A stretch of DNA of 64,000 nucleotides, taken from Rhyzopertha dominica (lineage: Eukaryota > Arthropoda > Insecta > Coleoptera > Bostrichidae). Positions 22,027-62,220 of this stretch are shown here, piece by piece. Position 1 is the first letter of the stretch. Each line of letters begins with the position of its first letter. Below the pieces are notes generated by a model that saw nothing but the letters and a program-made list of their open reading frames with translations, had not been told where the DNA came from and did not search any database. Location of the stretch: positions 24,486,286 to 24,550,285 of the forward strand of contig QCXZ01000064.1 of the NCBI GenBank assembly GCA_025024175.1. Direction: 5' to 3'. Position numbers and translations under genes: made by a program.

Positions 22027-23113
22027 TTAAAAACTACATGGAGCTACAAAAAAAATTCTCCAAAACACGGCAGCGTTATTACGTATTTCATCACAGTAAA
22101 ATACTATACGTTCTATTAGATTATCCCTCGTTTCTACAGGAGTAGAGTAAACTAAGTTTTTCAGGTGCCCCCACAAATAGAAATCGAGAGGGTTAAAATC
22201 TGGCGATCGAGGAGGCCAAGCAACAGGTCCTCCTCGACCTATCCATCGATTTGGATACGCATTATTTAAAAATTGTCGCACAGCAATACTAAAGTGGGGT
22301 GGTGCGCCATCATGCATGAACCACATGTTTCTTCTGGTTGCTAATGGAACGTCTTCTAAAAGCTGTTGTAAGTTATTTTGAAGGAACTGCAAATAGAGTT
22401 CCCCATTTAATCTTGGAGGTAGCACATATGGTCCTATTAAATGGTCCCCTATGATTCCCGCCCAAACATTAACAGACTGAAACTGGAACTGGTGTCTTGC
22501 AACCACTGTGGAATTAGGGTTTTCGTCCGCCCAAACATGTAAATTGCGTGAATTTATTACACCGTTTTTCGTGAAACCAGCCTCATCTGAATAAAGAATC
22601 GAACTAATAAAATCCCTGTTATTTGTGTGCTGTTCTAAGACCCAATTTGAAAATTCCACTCTAGCAGGAAAATCTTCATGACTTAAGAGCATGTACCTTT
22701 TGAACATGAAAAGGGTGCAGTAATTGTTCTTGAAAAATTCTGGAAATAGTGTTTTTGGACACATTGTGTTGCACCGCAAGTTTTCTAATACTATTGGTAG
22801 GATCCGCAGCCACGCTATCCAAAACGTTCTCCTCTAGGACCACTGTGCGTACTCTTCTTTGGACGCCACCGTTCAAGCTATCTTTTACAAATTTTCCTAA
22901 TAATTACAAATTGATATAAACATGCCTTTATGGATAATTTTATGTCCCACCTGTCTCCCTTAAACGTCTATCAACCCGTTCAAAAGTTTTCCGATCAGGA
23001 ATCCTACGGTCAGGAAATCGTTCTGCGTACAACCTCACAGCTTCTGTACTATTACCAAGGGCTAGACCATACACTAAATGCATGTCAGCATATTCAGGAA
23101 ATGAATATTCCAT
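22027..23113 (-). pseudogene. DD41D-type mariner-like transposase, two exons, one frameshift
   Basis: This transposase would cut and paste the surrounding element. The ATG at 23113 opens exon 1 (to 22951), which encodes a DUF4817-type helix-turn-helix (EYADMHLVYGLALGNS, then RRLRET). A 54-nt GT-AG intron (22950-22897, phase 1) joins it to exon 2. Exon 2 starts KFVKDSLNGGVQRR, followed by a second HTH (SIRKLAVQHNVSKNTISRI). The DDE domain has YSDEAGF, FMHDGAPPHFS and SPDFNPLDFYLWG. Forty-one residues separate the second D from the D of NPLD, giving DD41D spacing. One single-base frameshift near 22681-22690, between VQKVHAL and SHEDFP, breaks the frame; otherwise the protein of about 344 residues is complete. 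The family assignment is from motifs; DD41D subfamily membership is inferred from spacing. Confidence 0.85.
22897..22950 (-). other. Short intron in the transposase gene
   Basis: GTGGGACATA...TTATTAG, 54 nt, phase 1. Removing it restores RLRETG-KFV, the continuity expected between the DUF4817 domain and the following linker. It also removes the in-frame TAA directly after the donor. Confidence 0.7.
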
Positions 23114-40109: not shown

Positions 40110-40228
40110 TATTTATAAAAAAATGTTGCTAACTTTGACTAGGTTTGAACCCGGAACATTTTTATTACTAGTCAGACGTGCTAACCACTGCACCATCGAA
40201 GTTCTATTCAAATTCCAGGTCAAAGTGG
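40110..40228 (-). repeat. tRNA-derived SINE, copy 1
   Basis: On the minus strand GGTGCAGTGGTTAGCACG (A-box region) and CCGGGTTCAAACC (B-box) frame a tRNA-like head. It is followed by GTCAAAGTTAGCAACA and an A/T-rich tail. The anticodon arm is partly decayed. Copy 2 lies 230 bp away in the same orientation. Confidence 0.65.
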
Positions 40229-40339: not shown

Positions 40340-40465
40340 TTTGCATGTAAAATATTTATGAAAAAGTATTGCCAGCTTTGAACAGGATTTGACCCCGGAA
40401 CCTTTTGATTACTAGTCAAACGTGCTAACCACTTCACAATCAAAGCCCTATTGAAATTCCAGGTC
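40340..40465 (-). repeat. tRNA-derived SINE, copy 2 (best preserved anticodon arm)
   Basis: The minus strand reads AAGTGGTTAGCACG, then the anticodon arm TTTGA-CTAGTAA-TCAAA. This is a perfect 5-bp stem with a 7-base loop, conserved U33 and anticodon AGT. The B-box GGGGTCAAATCC follows, then TTCAAAGCTGGCAATACTTT. The loop CTAGTAA is that of insect tRNA-Thr(AGT), which makes tRNA-Thr the likely ancestor. Sequence 5' of the head (CTATTNAAATTCCAGGTCA on the plus strand) is shared with copy 1. Confidence 0.7.
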
Positions 40466-54919: not shown

Positions 54920-55240
54920 AGATGATTAAAAATGCATGTCTATGTTATGGTGTCTGCACCGCAACCAACTATAGATATATCTAGTTCGCTGTCATTACAG
55001 CTCATCAGTGTAGTTTAGGTCTAATGCAGACAGCATGGGACAGAACCAAGGGCTTGGTATGTAGACAAAAACTGGTTTTGTGAGTGTCCGTTGTCTATTT
55101 GATGTATGCAGGTGCATGCCGACTTGCCAGATTACAGGTCACTTCCTTTAGGAAGTAGTACCCATTAAGACAACCAGGTGGCTTCGTCATTGTGTCAGAT
55201 CATTGCTAACAGATGGCATTGCCATCTATTTTTCTTTTAA
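54920..55240. repeat. Unclassified repeat family, copy 1
   Basis: It shares two blocks with 58812-59050 and 61800-62220. Block B (54930-55035) contains GCAACCAACT...GATATATCTAGTTCGCT...GTTTAGGTCTAATGCAGACA. Block A (about 55110-55195) contains GGTGCATGCC...CAGATTACAGGTCACTTCC...AAGTAGTACCCATTAA. Inverted GGCTTGGTAT/ATACCAAGC motifs lie inside the copy, suggesting a foldback structure. There is no coding. Confidence 0.6.
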
Positions 55241-56000
55241 CATCATACCAAGCTTTTGGTATATAAGTAAATCATGCAAATCTATGCCAAGCTGTCTACT
55301 ACGGATAACTTCACTTAAAAGAACAACGAATTTTGCTATGTACCATGCTACAAAATGACCATCTTTTAGAAATAGGGCGGTGGAGGGTTCAAACGTCACT
55401 GGTAGATGGCAGCATCTTACAAGTGTAATATTTTTACATTTTTTTATCGTCTTATTCAAAATGAAACACATAATAACGATCGTGCAATAGGAGGACGTGA
55501 CATAGGAATATGTTATATAAACTTTCAATATGCTCCGAACAGTTACACCATGGATAAGGTTAGGTGCTTTGTTTTTTAAGTTAAGTACTGTGTCACAAGT
55601 TTCATTTACTTTTTAAGCGTTTTTGAGCTTATCATAGTTTGAGCCCTGCTAAATTCGTTGCTTAACCTTCGATTTGGCGAAATTTAAGGTCGCTTAGAGC
55701 AGAAAAAAATGAATAATTTATATGCGGTGGTACAAAGCTTCTTAATTGTTAAATTACGATAAACATCGTTATTATACGGTAATTTTATACTTATGGCGAT
55801 AAATCAAATGGTTGGTGTTTGTAGTTGTACAACTTAAAATGAAAATAAAACGTTTAACCAGTAAAAAGGAAATTGTGTCACATTGTGCTTACCTTATGCA
55901 AAAATTAAACACCGACATGGGGCGCCACCCATTGGCAATCCGTAAAAGCCTGCAAAACCAGGGACGCTTCCGAATCGTTTGTTCGGCATCCTGAGTGAAC
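55241..56000. other. Intergenic DNA
   Basis: No gene or recognised repeat. Confidence 0.35.
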
Positions 56001-56010
56001 GTATTCCTAC

Positions 56011-58804
56011 GGAAGTAGGCGAATTGGGTCCCACCCGATGCAGGTATGCTAATCTGCAATGCGAGTTGTATCCCAAACATAGGCGAGTTGGGTGCCAGTA
56101 ACCCGTAGTGTCATAAAAATGATTGTCTTATAAATTCCATAATACGTAGGGGTGTTCCACAAACGCCGATCATTTTGATCGCGGTATTAACCTCGAATCA
56201 AACCTTGGTAACCACAAATTTTAGGCGTTCTTATTGGTTGTTGCCACAGTTTGATCCGAGGATAACAATGGAATCAAAGTGATCCGCGTTTTGCAACCAG
56301 GCCCCTAATATTCCACATAAATTAAAGATCTTCAAAGCATACACATAAATAAGTATAGGTATATTGAAAAACTTATATACATAATAACAATACAACATGT
56401 AGAAATACAATTATTTTGAAATTCGAACATGGTAAGATACCTGTTTTACAAATTCAAATTTTGTTATTAAATTTTTTCTTAAATTATCAATTTGCTTTTC
56501 CAAATACTTTTGTCTATGCAAGGGTTTTATTGAATACAATTTCTTCCACTTTAATGCACTCATCATCTTTATGTAAGTGTCTACCTGCACATTTAGCAAT
56601 TCATTAATAAATAAAAATATTTTCGGATGGCTAGAGTAAAATGACTAATTAAATTTGTGATGGAATGATTCGCAAGCATTTGTCATCCTTTCTAATGACG
56701 ATGAATGCTCAGCCCAAATATGCGGTGGAAACGTGGCATTTTCGGATATATATGTCCGTACTAAATAATCCGCAAATTTTATAATTTTTTCGCATGTTGG
56801 CTGAATTTCAGCCAGATCAATCGCAAAACAATCCCCTACATCGTCAGGGTTTAGTAACGGAAGGCCAAAAATGTAAGACAGATATTTCTTGCTGTTGGAG
56901 TCAACCTTGCTATTGTAAACCGAAGATAAACCAAGTTCCTGAATTTTGCGATACCTGAAATAATAAGTACCATTATTATCAAACTTCATACCATTTTGGA
57001 CTATTCGATTTACCACGATTGTCCCAGATGGAAACGACAGCCTTAAATTAAACAGTCAGGGTATACTACATTGAAAGAGTTGTGGATTACCTACTCAAAG
57101 TCCATAGTAGCAATTTCCGGAGCAAAATGTTTTCCAATTTTCTGACATTCTTGATTTAAGTAACGTACAGCACTTGAATAAGATCCAGTAGCTTTGTTGG
57201 GTAATATAAAATACACTAGTGGGATATAATTTCCATTACACAAACCGTGAATTGTAAATAACTGTGTAAAAAATTTACAACAATAGTCGAAAGTCCCATC
57301 TACATAGATGTGCTTTACGTTCTCGACTAAAAATTCTAAATTTGTCCTACACAACAACATTCTTATATTTCTAGTTCTGTCGTTTATCAGAAGAAAATTT
57401 TCGTTTTTATTTGTAGTCAGCGGATAATTATCTAAATAGTCGTGAACTTCCAATTTAGAGTTTGGGAGAGGGCCTGACATATTGGATCATCGGGCCCAAT
57501 ATATGTTCTTTTTTATGCTGTTTAAGTCTGTAGTTGTAAATTGGTTTTCTGGATGGACCCTTAGTTCTTTGCGCAAAATTTTTGTTGGGCATTCTGTTAT
57601 GTCTTCTATGGCTTTTATTTTTAAGGAATTGCTTAATAATTGCCGCTCCATCAAATTTTCATCAGGGGGGTCATGGTTGTGGATGAGGGATGATTCAACG
57701 ATATTGTCTGTGCTGCCTATAAATAATAAAATAAAAGGTAAGAAAAATCTTTATTGCTACATATCGTTTGTCATAAATGTTAAGCCCTGTTAGCCTACTG
57801 GGTGCCTGACTTTTAAGCTACAATTCTATAATAAGAAAATGTTTCCTTTTTGTTTTGAACGCGCTATAATTTGAAAACCAAACGACTTTATACAAGATGA
57901 CTCAAAATTATGAAACTTATTCAGTAAAAAAATTCAAGTGAATTTTAAGCAAAAACGCTCACACATGTCAATTTTTGGGCTTTTCATGCGCAATAACAAA
58001 ACCCATTTTTCAGCAGAAGTCGATAAAACTTCTTTTACTGGATACTGCGATAACCCATACGTAGAGTCTGCCATCTACTATTCAAAAGTAATGAACATTT
58101 ATATTTCAAAGCACACAGCATAGGTCACTTAATACATATTGTCTACTGTTACTAACAATTCTAAAAAAACTTTAAAGCGTCGTATGATATTGTTTTTTTA
58201 ATGATTTCATGCTATTGAGATTTTTAATAAATTTCGTATTTTTTTTCAATTGTTTACTGAATAGCAAGTAAGCATGTTTGTTATTTAATTCGTAATTTTT
58301 AAATTTTCGAAAATTGGACTCGTATTTTGGGAAAGCAATCGGGAGCAAAACAATATTCATTGTTTTTTACACTGATTTGATATATTACAGCATTAAAAGC
58401 CGAAAGTAGAATTTAAATTTAAATTTGTAAAAAAGATACTTAATAAAACTTACCCTCTGTCTTAATAAATGCCTTGCACAAGGTTTTTTTATTAGTACAA
58501 GTCCACCTTTTCACGGTTTTCTTGTTTATATACTTGTGACAGCCGAACTTGAGCTTATTTAAAACAATAAGTTCTTTGCCTTTTTCACTCACTTCACAAC
58601 TGAAACTTGACATTGTTCTGAACACTACCACACAAATAAAACTAAAATTTATGCACTATCTGTCGTAGCCCAAATATTGCAAATTTTATAAATGGGCGGC
58701 TAAATTGTACACCAATGAATGACAAGATATTAGGAAGAAGGGATTTTGGGGAAAAAAACATCCTGTGTAATTGCTTTTTTGTGGGACCCAACTCGTACCT
58801 TTCC
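56011..58804 (-). mobile_element. Mutator-like element (MULE) with FLYWCH transposase
   Basis: A three-exon transposase gene on the minus strand is flanked by inverted ends GGAAGTAGGCGAATTGGG (56011) and, inverted, GGAAAGGTACGAGTTGGG (58804), each followed by TCCCAC. The ends match at 18 of 24 positions. The 8-mer ATTCCTAC directly abuts both ends (56003-56010 and 58805-58812) and may be the target duplication; MULEs usually make 8-10 bp. A related motif, GGCGAGTTGGGTGCCA, lies inside at 56081. The boundary is plausible rather than proven, because the short 8-mer could match by chance. Confidence 0.6.
56411..58613 (-). pseudogene. FLYWCH-MULE transposase, three exons, two in-frame stops
   Basis: Exon 1 (58613-58454) encodes a FLYWCH zinc finger: EKGKELIVLNKLKFGCHKY, RWTC and LCKAF, with the last two ligands (IHNH) at the start of exon 2. 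A 737-nt GTAAGT...TTATAG intron (58453-57717) follows. Exon 2 (57716-57095) carries NLMERQLLSNSLKIKAIEDI and the MULE core IYVDGTFDYCCKFFTQLFTI, with the first catalytic D, ending at TMDFE with the second D. A 53-nt intron (57094-57042) leads to exon 3 with KIQELGLSSVY and ERMTNACESFHHKFN, carrying the catalytic E. Two premature stops (TGA 57489-57487, TAG 56647-56645) interrupt an otherwise continuous protein of about 470 codons. The usual CxxH after the second D looks degenerate (GTYYFRY). Confidence 0.82.
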
Positions 58805-58811
58805 ATTCCTA

Positions 58812-59050
58812 CTGTCTGCATTAGACCTAAACGACACTGAAGAGCTGTAATGACAGGGAAATAAATTATCTGTAGCTGGTTGCGGTGCAGACAGCATAGC
58901 ACAGACATGTATTTTTATGTATGTCGGTTCTTGCCCGTTGGCAAAAAGTGTCGTGGGGCCTACTGNCAAGTTGNTGTAAGCAGGTGCATGCCNATTTGTC
59001 AGATTACAGGTCACTTTCTTTAAGAGGTAGTACCTATTAAGGCAGTTAGG
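58812..59050. repeat. Unclassified repeat family, copy 2
   Basis: This copy is the inverse of about 61805-62070: TGTCTGCATTAGACCTAAAC, GGTTGCGGTGCAGACAGCA, TATGTCGGTTCTTGCCCG, GCAAAAAGTG, AGGTGCATGCC, then GTAGTACCTATTAAGGCA. It is truncated on its left exactly at the MULE boundary and contains several Ns. A GGTTAGGTTAGGTTA-like stretch follows. Confidence 0.6.
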
Positions 59051-59304
59051 TTAGGTTATCAGGATTATCTAATAAATAACTTAAGATAAAGCATAATAAA
59101 ACAATTGTTTTCATAATATTAAATTAAATCAGCTGTAATTACTAGGCTCCAATTAATAGAACCCCTTGTAAAAAGGAAAAGATGCGATATCATTTTGACT
59201 GCTCAAATTTTAATGAACGATGACTATTAATACAGTACAGCAGATTAACGCGTTAATCCAATTTTTTGCCATGGTTTTTAATGCATACTGCCCTATTTGG
59301 GTGA

Positions 59305-59520: not shown

Positions 59521-60955
59521 CATACAGCGGCCCCGACAAGTGTAACCAAAAGTTCGTAAAATGTAATAATAATCACACTCAAACTCTCTAAGTTCTTCCG
59601 CGAAAAAAGAAATACCTGTTGACTGGTATACGTCGTTGATTATTCCTACTTGATGCAGGTAGAGAGGTTAAGATTTTCTTCGATTTTTAACAAAATGTTT
59701 AAAACAGTGGATCGTGCAATAGGAAGTTTTATATTAAAAAAATAATGGCTTCGGAGCCTATCGCCATAACCAACCATAATTAAAGTTTAGATTTGTTTAA
59801 TCTCAGATAGAAGCATTTAAATTATTACTTGTTTGAGAATTGTCACTGTCAATGTCGTATTTTGTCTGCTTTTGACTACAATGTTGTATTTTTACAATTA
59901 CTTCCGACTGGACTAAGCATTAGTTGAACATCAACAATTCCAAACAATAGCAAAAGCACGACTGGGTATCAGTGGTCAAAAAGTTATTATCTTTCTTAAT
60001 TCTTTCAATTTCAATGGAATCTACAGAATCTATTATTTTTATTATTTTTGGAATTGTCTTCCTTATTTCAAGATATTCAGCAAGTGCTTGCCGCAGCCAG
60101 AAGGGATATAAGGCACCAGGTCGCCTAACCCACGTTACTCCTTCGAACAATTGTTTAACCTATATATTTATTTGTTAATCTGTTTTCTTAGTTTTGTGTT
60201 TACATGTATTCTATCACTACCGACTATGACCAATTATTTTTTTTACTTATTTTATTTTCTTCTTACGAAAAGTTTGGTTTATTAGTATTCTGGAGTAACT
60301 TCTCAGTTCGATAAGTCACTTACTTACTGAAAATATTCCCAATTTCATTTGCTTCGTAATAATAGCAGCAAAAATTATAAGGAAAAGGTACGATACTTTA
60401 CTTGTATTGGGAAAAGCTGCTGCCGCTGCTCGCAGCATTACTTTTTTACGCTCCGCGTACCTTCAGTGATGGGTTTCAAACGGATGTTTTAGGGACATGC
60501 AGGCCGCGTTCTCGTAGTAGGCGGTGGCGGATCCCACCGCATCCTCCTAATACGGCGAAGTGTTTCGGTCTTCCTCCAGGGACCGGGAGAAATGGATTGG
60601 AAAACTTCCATCCATTGATTTGTATTCGCTCTCTGCCGGCGCACTTATGTATTTACTGACTCGATCCGGACCAGATGGAAATACTTTGGCAAATACAGAA
60701 GGTTATAAGTTTTTGTAGGCGAAGGTGTCTCTTCCGCATTGCCTTCGTAAGAAAATCAACATATAGTTCAATTGTCCGTTTTGACAGAAAGGACTTTTAT
60801 TGAGTTATATACGACTAAATATTTATACAAGATTAGTCAAATTTATTAGTGTTAACATGAACTTTGCAGCAAAATGTTTAACAAAAAATTTTTGCTATAA
60901 TAATTTTTCATAACAGCCTACTTTTCGTTTTTCTGTCAAAGTATTATCACTCTGT
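59521..60955. other. Intergenic DNA with a GC-elevated island
   Basis: About 60415-60660 is GC-richer and non-repetitive, with an open frame (60402-60659) that is proline- and arginine-rich but matches no family I know. The rest is AT-rich. Confidence 0.35.
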
Positions 60956-60983
60956 AAGCAAGATGAAATAAATGATCTGCTCT

Positions 60984-61058
60984 GGTCAATCCCTTCTGAC
61001 CCTACGACTAGTTTCGCCCTATTGGGGCTCATCAGGTAGGGTGCAGAGTAAATTGACC
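60984..61058 (-). ncRNA. Type I hammerhead ribozyme, copy 1 (complete)
   Basis: The minus strand from 61042 to 60999 reads stem I strand ACCCTAC, core CTGATGA, stem II GCCC-CAATA-GGGC, core GAAA, minimal stem III (AC-TA-GT), cleavage triplet GTC and stem I partner GTAGGGT. All 7 bp of stem I and 4 bp of stem II pair, and every invariant core base is present. Predicted self-cleavage is after the C at 61006. An outer helix GGTCAAT/ATTGACC (61058-61052 with 60990-60984) extends stem I across an internal loop. The two-base-pair stem III is typical of retrotransposon-associated type I hammerheads, which often need a dimeric form to cleave well. Confidence 0.85.
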
Positions 61059-61249
61059 AAAACAGACCTTCGCCTTTAACCGCGGCGTGCGGACTGGTAT
61101 ATAAAGAGAGCTGATGCCCTCAGTGTCACCTAAGCGGAACTCTATGAACTAGGCGGTCTATAACTCAAAGACATCGACCTAGTTCAGGTTCCTGTCGATA
61201 GAATCGGAGAAGCTACTCCGCCGCGAAGAGGAAATAAATCATCTGCTAT

Positions 61250-61322
61250 GGTCAATTCACTCTGAACCGACTAGTTTCGCCCTACTGGGGCTCATCAGGT
61301 ATCGATAGAGAGTAAATTGACC
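61250..61322 (-). ncRNA. Hammerhead ribozyme, copy 2 (decayed stem I)
   Basis: The core CTGATGA, stem II GCCC-CAGTA-GGGC, GAAAC-TA-GTC and the outer GGTCAAT/ATTGACC helix are kept. Stem I next to the core is broken (GATAC against GGTTC) by a small deletion on one side and changes on the other. It is probably weak or inactive. Confidence 0.7.
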
Positions 61323-61501
61323 AAAACTAACATGCGACATGCGGATGGTGTATAAGAGAGCTGATGCCCTCAGTGCCATCTAAACGGAACTCTGCAAGCT
61401 AGGCGGTCTATAACTGTGACAGATATCGACCTACTGCTGGTTCATATCGATGGCATCAGAGAAGCTATTCCGTCAGCAAGATGAAATAAGTTATCTATTC
61501 T

Positions 61502-61577
61502 GGTCAATCCACTCTGACCCTACCACCAGTTTCGCCCTATTGGGGCTCATCAGTTAGGGGTAAAGAGTAAATTGACC
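61502..61577 (-). ncRNA. Hammerhead ribozyme, copy 3 (cleavage triplet changed)
   Basis: The core CTGATGA, stem II and GAAA are intact. The cleavage triplet is GTG instead of GTC, which violates the NUH rule, and stem I pairs at 5 of 7 positions. It is predicted inactive. The outer helix is conserved. Confidence 0.7.
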
Positions 61578-61799
61578 AAAACAGACCGTCGCCTTTAATC
61601 GCGGCTTGCGGACTGGTGTATAAGAGAGCTAATGCTCTCAGTGCCATATAAGCGGAACCCTGCGAGCTAGATGGAAGTGTCACCACTATAATGGCATTCC
61701 TCAGAGCAAACAATAAGCCTGCGCAAAATTATTATTTATATATTTAGACACTTTTTAAAATAATTTTAACCTTAACTAGAAATTTCTTTTAGCATTACC

Positions 61800-62220
61800 C
61801 TAACATGATGACAAAGCCACCTAGCTTGCCTTAATGGGTGCTACTTCCTAAAAAAAAGTGTCCTGTAGCGTGACAAGTTGGCATGCACCTGCATACATTA
61901 ACTTGACAGCAGGCCCCCTCGGCACTTTTTGCAAGCGGGCAAGAACCGACATACATTAAAATGCATGTCTTTGTTGTGCTGTCTGCATCGCAACCAACTG
62001 CAGATAGATCTATTTCGCTATAATTATAGGTCATCAGTGCAGTTTAGGTCTAGTGCAGACAGCACGGCACAGAACTGGTTTTGCCTATATTCTAAAGGCT
62101 TGGTATGATGTAAGTAGAAATTTAGATGGAAATGCCATCTGTTAGCATTACACTGACATGATGACAAAGCCACCTAGCTGCTTCAATGAGTACTACTTTC
62201 TTTAGGAAGTTTTTTTAAAT
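61800..62220. repeat. Unclassified repeat family, copy 3 (longest)
   Basis: Two direct copies of block A in minus orientation (GATGACAAAGCCACCTAGCT, at about 61808 and 62160) flank block B (about 61955-62065), giving a unit of about 350 bp. Blocks A and B are shared with copies 1 and 2. A hairpin-like AGATGGAAATGCCATCT lies near 62122-62138. An open frame through it on the minus strand is not a recognised protein. Confidence 0.6.

Follow-up and report, generated by a model that had tools for sequence, protein, structure and literature searches.

The question raised by this locus is whether a short run of hammerhead ribozymes in an insect genome is a mobile retrozyme and, if so, which enzyme moves it. 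The stretch analysed, here called the window, is 64 kb long and carries an array on its minus strand at 60950..61674. The original prediction described three successive units of about 260 bp, each with a minus-strand type I hammerhead. Minus-strand tandem copies are borne out by direct repeats spaced 250–268 bp apart, with a mean column identity of 81% in a three-copy alignment, but a full third unit is not; the array has about 2.75 tandem units of 255–263 nt, and copy 3 retains about 150 nt of the unit. All run in a single orientation, unlike most of the young loci described below, which are inverted. No reading frame of 85 aa or more overlaps the array, so it has no protein of its own, and no further copies of the unit were found in the 64-kb window. 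A target duplication above chance was not found at its borders, 18 of 60 random places being equally good, and a second search gave 5 bp.

Copy 1 (61000..61041, minus strand) has an intact core and passes the covariance-model check, matching Rfam Hammerhead_1 with 35.7 bits against a gathering cut-off of 34 (E = 2.9 × 10−5 for 64 kb and 4227 families). C17 is at 61006, and the cut is expected between 61006 and 61005. The predicted core, 4-bp stem II and C17 site are all present. Stem I reads as a 6-bp stem plus an A-U pair, and stem III is not 2 bp but a single pair, A15.1-U16.1, closing a self-complementary CUAG loop. Together stem III and loop give ACUAGU, which reads as able to pair only with a second copy. 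The outer helix, which takes copy 1 out to about 60986-61057, was said to be conserved and is indeed present in all three copies.

Copies 2 and 3 remain recognisable as type I hammerheads, but only below the cut-off, the HH9 model scoring them at 27.2 and 36.1 bits against a cut-off of 52 (E = 0.014 and 1.9 × 10−5). In copy 2 (61250..61316, minus strand, C17 at 61269), a 3-nt deletion shortens the 3′ arm of stem I, 3 of the 6 pairs remain, and GUC is paired in the best fold. In copy 3 (61502..61571, minus strand), G replaces C17 at 61524 and there is an A.G mismatch at the base of stem I. Both are probably inactive, and copy 1 looks to be the only cleavage-competent one. No other hammerhead matches were found in the 64-kb window at E up to 1. 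Forcing the active fold costs 7.0, 11.3, and 7.8 kcal/mol relative to the best fold in copies 1, 2, and 3. The two full window units, folded as circles, have stability z-scores of −6.8 and −2.5 versus shuffles, with paired fractions of 61% and 68% versus 61% and 62%, so one of them is no more paired than its shuffles. Because release of a unit takes two cuts and only copy 1 looks competent, the window locus is not expected to yield circles, and the suggested release of circular RNAs of about 260 nt is unlikely here.

The window also holds LINE remains, a DDE transposase frame (22030-22833, minus strand), for which metagenomic data contain a relative at 87% identity, and a fragment of a MULE transposase (57094-57486, minus strand). 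Those relatives of the LINE frame that are named belong to Tribolium, an aphid, and a butterfly, which makes an insect host likely. About 110 bp past the array (61785-62210) begins another dispersed repeat, built internally of direct and inverted parts; it recurs at 54929-55297 and 58812-59051 with 77–86% identity. Two tRNA-like matches 243 bp apart on the minus strand, at 40131-40202 (49.1 bits) and 40374-40446 (33.2 bits), received no call from ARAGORN, and the pair is possibly a tRNA-derived repeat.

To place the array, we examine the 479-Mb assembly of 138 contigs that contains the window. With the array as query, at least 69 matches came from the 40 scored of 1356 candidates; these mark 40 places including the window, and the other 39 were retrieved as a first set. 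With a young unit as query, at least 178 matches came from the 40 scored of 1118 candidates, and 25 further places were retrieved as a second set. The family profile was made strand-aware, the unit being self-complementary. The search finds dispersed relatives with tandem units, intact hammerheads, and target duplications, and these support the retrozyme-like reading originally offered. A tree built from 65 units groups 39 rows in a single young clade (100/100); both full window units fall outside it, at no more than 84% identity to any other row. Young units are 276–277 nt long and 93–99% identical across the nine loci compared. Judged by its sequence, then, the window array is an old, decayed, and mostly broken member of a dispersed retrozyme family. 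Within that family, two loci on one contig (L021 and L022, G000 C47, at about 30 kb and 56 kb) carry one and the same insertion, flanks included, in opposite orientations, which would be either a segmental inverted duplication or an assembly artefact.

The hammerhead is intact as a sequence in most young copies. A core-demanding pattern collects 51 distinct hammerheads with a regular stem II, in which the 15.1-16.1 pair and the first stem II pair were imposed and so are uninformative. Position 17 is C in 48 of the 51, and the stem III loop is CUAG in 41, CCGG in 4, UUAG in 3, CUAU in 2, and CUGG in 1. The CCGG version, seen at L009, L029, and L036, is a different palindrome that is again self-complementary, and so fits pairing between two copies. 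When the 51 are aligned, the stated structure, which includes a 15-bp outer helix, has 93.1% of its cells paired, versus 35–42% for slid versions. Double-sided changes affect 59 cells versus 19.7 in shuffles (0 of 500 as high), an excess that the shuffles overstate by reason of the kinship of the sequences, while pairs with double-sided change (6 versus 4.8) and further pair types (28 versus 27.9) are not unusual. Among the nine young loci searched with Rfam, no hammerhead reaches the cut-off; there are 28 HH9 matches at 28.7–40.8 bits (E = 2.9 × 10−7 to 0.0023). The hammerhead core with the CUAG loop has no exact match in viral contigs, and the family core has none in prokaryote genome contigs.

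The main point of interest is how the young copies are inserted. We divided 39 young loci into segments according to strand and position in the unit; 14 are from the first set, where L022 was omitted because it duplicates L021, and 25 from the second. At 25 of the 39 the flanks match over 10 bp or more, compared to 20 of 1482 mismatched flank pairs; discounting two as spurious, a simple repeat at L056 and a match inside the element at L069, leaves convincing target duplications of 10–15 bp at 23 of 39. For the first set plus the window, duplications reach 9 bp at 15 of 40 places versus a null of 0.4%, L021 and L022 each being counted. By these features of sequence, the younger copies are true insertions.

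Inverted arrays make up 29 of the 39, and the other 10 have one orientation. All 29 are head to head with their 3′ ends outward, and plus-then-minus junctions number 0 among the 39. An older locus, L043, has a minus-strand fragment about 1 kb past a plus-strand unit. The outer 3′ ends lie at two places, site A at about nt 42 after the cleavage site and site B at about nt 180. Where duplications fix the ends in the first set, A falls at 39–43 in 9 of 10 young ends (L010 is at 47, and the A end of L018 was not aligned), and B at 177–182 in 8 of 9 (L046 is at 187). In the window array, the base equivalent to site A is near 60964, about 13 nt inside the 3′ end (60950..60966, minus strand).

Each inverted locus tends to use one of each. 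One A end (39–49) and one B end (172–187) are found together in 25 of the 29, namely L010, L014, L018, L020, L021, L023, L038, L046, L051, L052, L053, L055-L059, L061-L068, and L072. The others are L016, with ends at A and 12 nt past A; L047, with B and nt 113; L049, with neither A nor B; and L054, with A and a second end outside the retrieved piece. If the ends were independent, the probability of 25 unlike pairs in 26 would be 4 × 10−7. Seven older inverted loci (L009, L017, L024, L025, L034, L039, and L041) likewise each have one A-like and one B-like end. Of the one-orientation young loci, 8 of 10 end at A (L012, L013, L045, L048, L050, L060, L069, and L070), L028 ends at B, and L071 at neither. 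Concerning L049 (G000 C14:24800-27100, on a 60-kb contig), both of its ends are at the hammerhead cleavage site and its flanks are mutually inverted copies, so that it would be part of a larger palindrome or an assembly artefact. Sites A and B are nearly half a unit apart (about 42 and 180 of 277), which may be chance; a half-unit duplication as their source was tried and rejected, scoring 47 against a shuffled mean of 45.6, with 121 of 300 shuffles as good.

The junctions between the two arms have zero gap or overlap in 19 of the 29 inverted loci, a gap of 1–15 nt in 8, and more in 2, at scattered positions. Strand-specific 9-base words show zero discordant cases in 9 of 10 young inverted loci, with 7 of 552 in L046. 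Units diverge by 2.17% within an arm, 2.50% between opposite arms, and 4.29% between loci. Variants shared within an arm and variants private to a unit are both present, which is compatible with either a circular or a linear multimeric template.

Head-to-head insertion leads to the Penelope-like elements, in which this genome is rich, with at least 144 GIY-YIG matches from the 150 scored of 2081 candidates. About 20 neighbouring GIY-YIG pairs within 6 kb are arranged minus then plus, counted by eye among the listed matches. One locus (L080) has a single frame with RT and GIY-YIG domains, for which a search for related solved structures found none. Another (L091), from the Penelope family that was studied, has an 864-aa frame, containing one X, whose sequence shows YVDD and a GIY-YIG-like end; it matches no Pfam family, although the genome search scored GIY-YIG there. 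We retrieved 11 inverted Penelope pairs, picked for shortness. In each of the 11, one 3′ end is short and the other long, the two being 35–42 nt apart, and 10 of 11 have exact duplications of 12–16 bp, compared to a null of 0 of 110 at 10 bp or more. The eleventh, L085, has an imperfect target duplication as judged by eye.

An AT-rich motif containing the 3′ half of a hammerhead (GGUCGAAACGUC) precedes the short end by 75–79 nt and the long end by 113–118 nt at six Penelope loci. No Rfam hammerhead matches were found in ten Penelope loci; five matches to AT-rich miRNA families were obtained, all below the cut-off. Going by its bases, the motif is hammerhead-like only, since its 5′ core departs from the standard one. 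Copies L073, L077, L081, L082, and L084-L090 share it, and in them U and A seem to replace C and G at positions 3 and 8, which is possibly a compensated core pair.

A second comparison is between the target sites themselves. In empty sites reconstructed at 20 retrozyme and 10 Penelope loci, the sequence before the duplicated 13 bp is A-rich and often ends in C, and the sequence after it is T-rich and often begins with G. The motif test excludes the base adjoining each border, which is biased by how the border is set, and control DNA in both directions of the test was taken from retrozyme-locus flanks. When the motif is trained on the 10 Penelope sites and applied to 23 retrozyme sites, the 20 plus three one-orientation loci, these score above all 20000 resamples of flanking DNA, also when the resamples are A+T-matched. 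Trained on retrozyme sites and scored on Penelope sites, the motif is equalled by 0 of 20000 resamples, or 1 of 20000 when A+T-matched. The motif is symmetrical, and in its Penelope version the upstream side (A 29, T 6 of 40) is stronger than the downstream one (T 16, A 10 of 40). The median duplication length is 13 bp in both elements alike, while the A+T content of the duplications is 85% for Penelope and 66% for the retrozyme.

The one-of-each fixed ends, equal duplication length, and target motif shared by both elements are what link Penelope to the retrozyme as its mover. Hence, we think it likely that this is an animal non-LTR retrozyme whose movement is provided in trans by Penelope machinery, priming reverse transcription on both strands of the target. 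The Penelope protein, carrying GIY-YIG and RT domains, would cut the two target strands about 13 bp apart and, with retrozyme RNA as template, start one cDNA at site A and a second at site B, after which the cDNAs would be joined. The hammerhead would cut multimeric transcripts to size, probably working as a dimer held together by its palindromic stem III, and it may also help the Penelope protein to recognise the retrozyme RNA. In vitro, the Penelope protein of Anolis is described as cutting and extending both target strands, unlike R2 and LINE-1, and as beginning inside the RNA at two sites with hammerhead cleavage dispensable (PMC11167929). Penelope inserts in Adineta vaga are described as having inverted terminal repeats, an optional tail at one of them, and duplications of 8–10 bp (PMC3846280). 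The retrozyme inserts agree in kind with both. The Penelope link drawn by the original prediction thus gains support from the way younger copies insert, but not in its other form, that of a Penelope terminal repeat, as no Penelope sequence was found in the 64-kb window. Counting against a Penelope helper, sites A and B have no sequence similarity to the Penelope start sites, the start-site spacing differs (138 nt in the retrozyme and 35–42 nt in Penelope), and the one-orientation quarter of the young loci, 10 of 39, is not inverted.

Other routes to such inserts have to be weighed. A LINE could move the retrozyme, with inverted arrays formed by ordinary twin priming; a LINE with endonuclease and RT domains sits in the window itself, and duplications of 10–15 bp also suit LINEs. 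Twin priming by a LINE, though, leaves one arbitrary end. In the retrozyme neither end is arbitrary, 25 of 29 loci pairing an A with a B end, inverted Penelope copies in the same genome show an equal end pattern, and the symmetrical target motif is common to retrozyme and Penelope in a comparison that covered the sites of those two elements. Duplications of 15 bp that are LINE-like are described in Nematostella (PMC4918200). Snap-back self-priming, in which a single cDNA folds back at a palindrome, is an earlier proposal for Penelope (PMC3846280); it would make head-to-head arrays in place of two-strand target priming, and it draws on the strong self-complementarity of the unit and on the 6 of 29 junctions that lie near the stem I palindrome versus 1.4 expected. 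It also predicts the identical site at both ends, whereas 25 of 29 pairs are unlike, and it leaves 23 of 29 junctions elsewhere than at that palindrome. Since the ends predicted by these two routes, one arbitrary for the LINE and two alike for snap-back, differ from those observed, we disfavour both and regard each as improbable to about the same degree. Still less credible, to the point that we would hardly consider it, is an immobile, simple satellite whose hammerhead is accidental or a relic: the units are tandem and the window copies are decayed, but dispersed inserts with target duplications and fixed ends contradict it, as do hammerhead pairs maintained by double-sided changes.

The closest competitor keeps Penelope as the mover and changes the template, to a linear multimeric transcript with a fixed 5′ end, circles being uninvolved in transposition. 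We give this a little under an even chance. Among first-set one-orientation loci, 16 of 19 have 5′ ends at model positions 128–169 (L019, L031, and L042, being fragmented, were omitted), and this clustering points to either a strong stop or a template RNA whose 5′ end is defined. The clustered ends (L009-L047 and the window) sit just before a perfect hairpin (GAGGGCATCTGCCCTC). The Anolis insertion without hammerhead cleavage (PMC11167929) also favours a linear template, as does within-arm divergence close to that of opposite arms. The 6 second-set one-orientation loci, however, have no common 5′ end (4, 249, 244, 30, 12, and 12), and circles are reported as abundant in three other animals (PMC7229834).

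Retrozymes in animals and Penelope as their suspected helper are already published. Animal non-LTR retrozymes are described as non-coding tandem units of 170–400 nt with type I hammerheads, in dimers upward, with insects among the hosts and circles reported for coral, mussel, and salamander; Penelope was suggested as helper from co-occurrence, tandem form, and shared hammerheads (PMC7229834), a suggestion repeated in PMC7761336 and PMC8969392. The present family is like them in its tandem units, type I hammerheads, lack of a protein, dispersal, and, within the family, duplications longer than 4 bp. The G+C content, given as below 50% for metazoan retrozymes (PMC7229834), is here 54–56% in young units and 46–49% in the window units. 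The retrozymes of axolotl and newt (PMC7229834, PMC6155905) are described with the same one-pair stem III, palindromic tetraloop, and expected action as a dimer, in an unrelated amphibian unit of 330–350 nt. Another insect tandem repeat, the pDo500 satellite of Dolichopoda cave crickets, is described as having a hammerhead that is conserved, shows compensatory changes, and has been proposed to act in a double form, in units of 463–505 bp as opposed to 255–277 nt here (PMC2837043). Canonical GIY-YIG Penelope-like elements share head-to-head copies and target duplications, with a tail at one of two 3′ ends and a hammerhead-like motif before the start sites as comparable features (PMC11167929, PMC3846280); they encode RT and endonuclease, whereas the retrozyme array has no frame of its own.

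What appears new is the insertion signature. The account of metazoan retrozymes in the portions of PMC7229834 used here describes no head-to-head inserts, two fixed 3′ ends, or target motif, all of which are present in this family. In the literature searched, mostly abstracts and passages and including few subscription papers, we found neither retrozyme inserts joined head to head with two fixed ends nor the shared target motif described. A review states, in the passage concerned, that the repeats show no motif revealing which reverse transcriptase mobilises retrozymes (PMC7761336). One-of-each ends, equal duplication length, and a shared motif make the Penelope-helper proposal testable in any genome, and through them a small non-coding RNA becomes a handle on how the Penelope enzyme integrates. 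We would speculate further that the retrozyme RNA parasitises a dimeric Penelope enzyme obliged to begin at A on one strand and at B on the opposite one, one small and perhaps circular RNA templating both from sites about 138 of 277 nt apart; this is a doubtful step beyond the helper reading. If it were true, the one-of-each rule would hold for Penelope integration in general and could be recognised in genome sequences.
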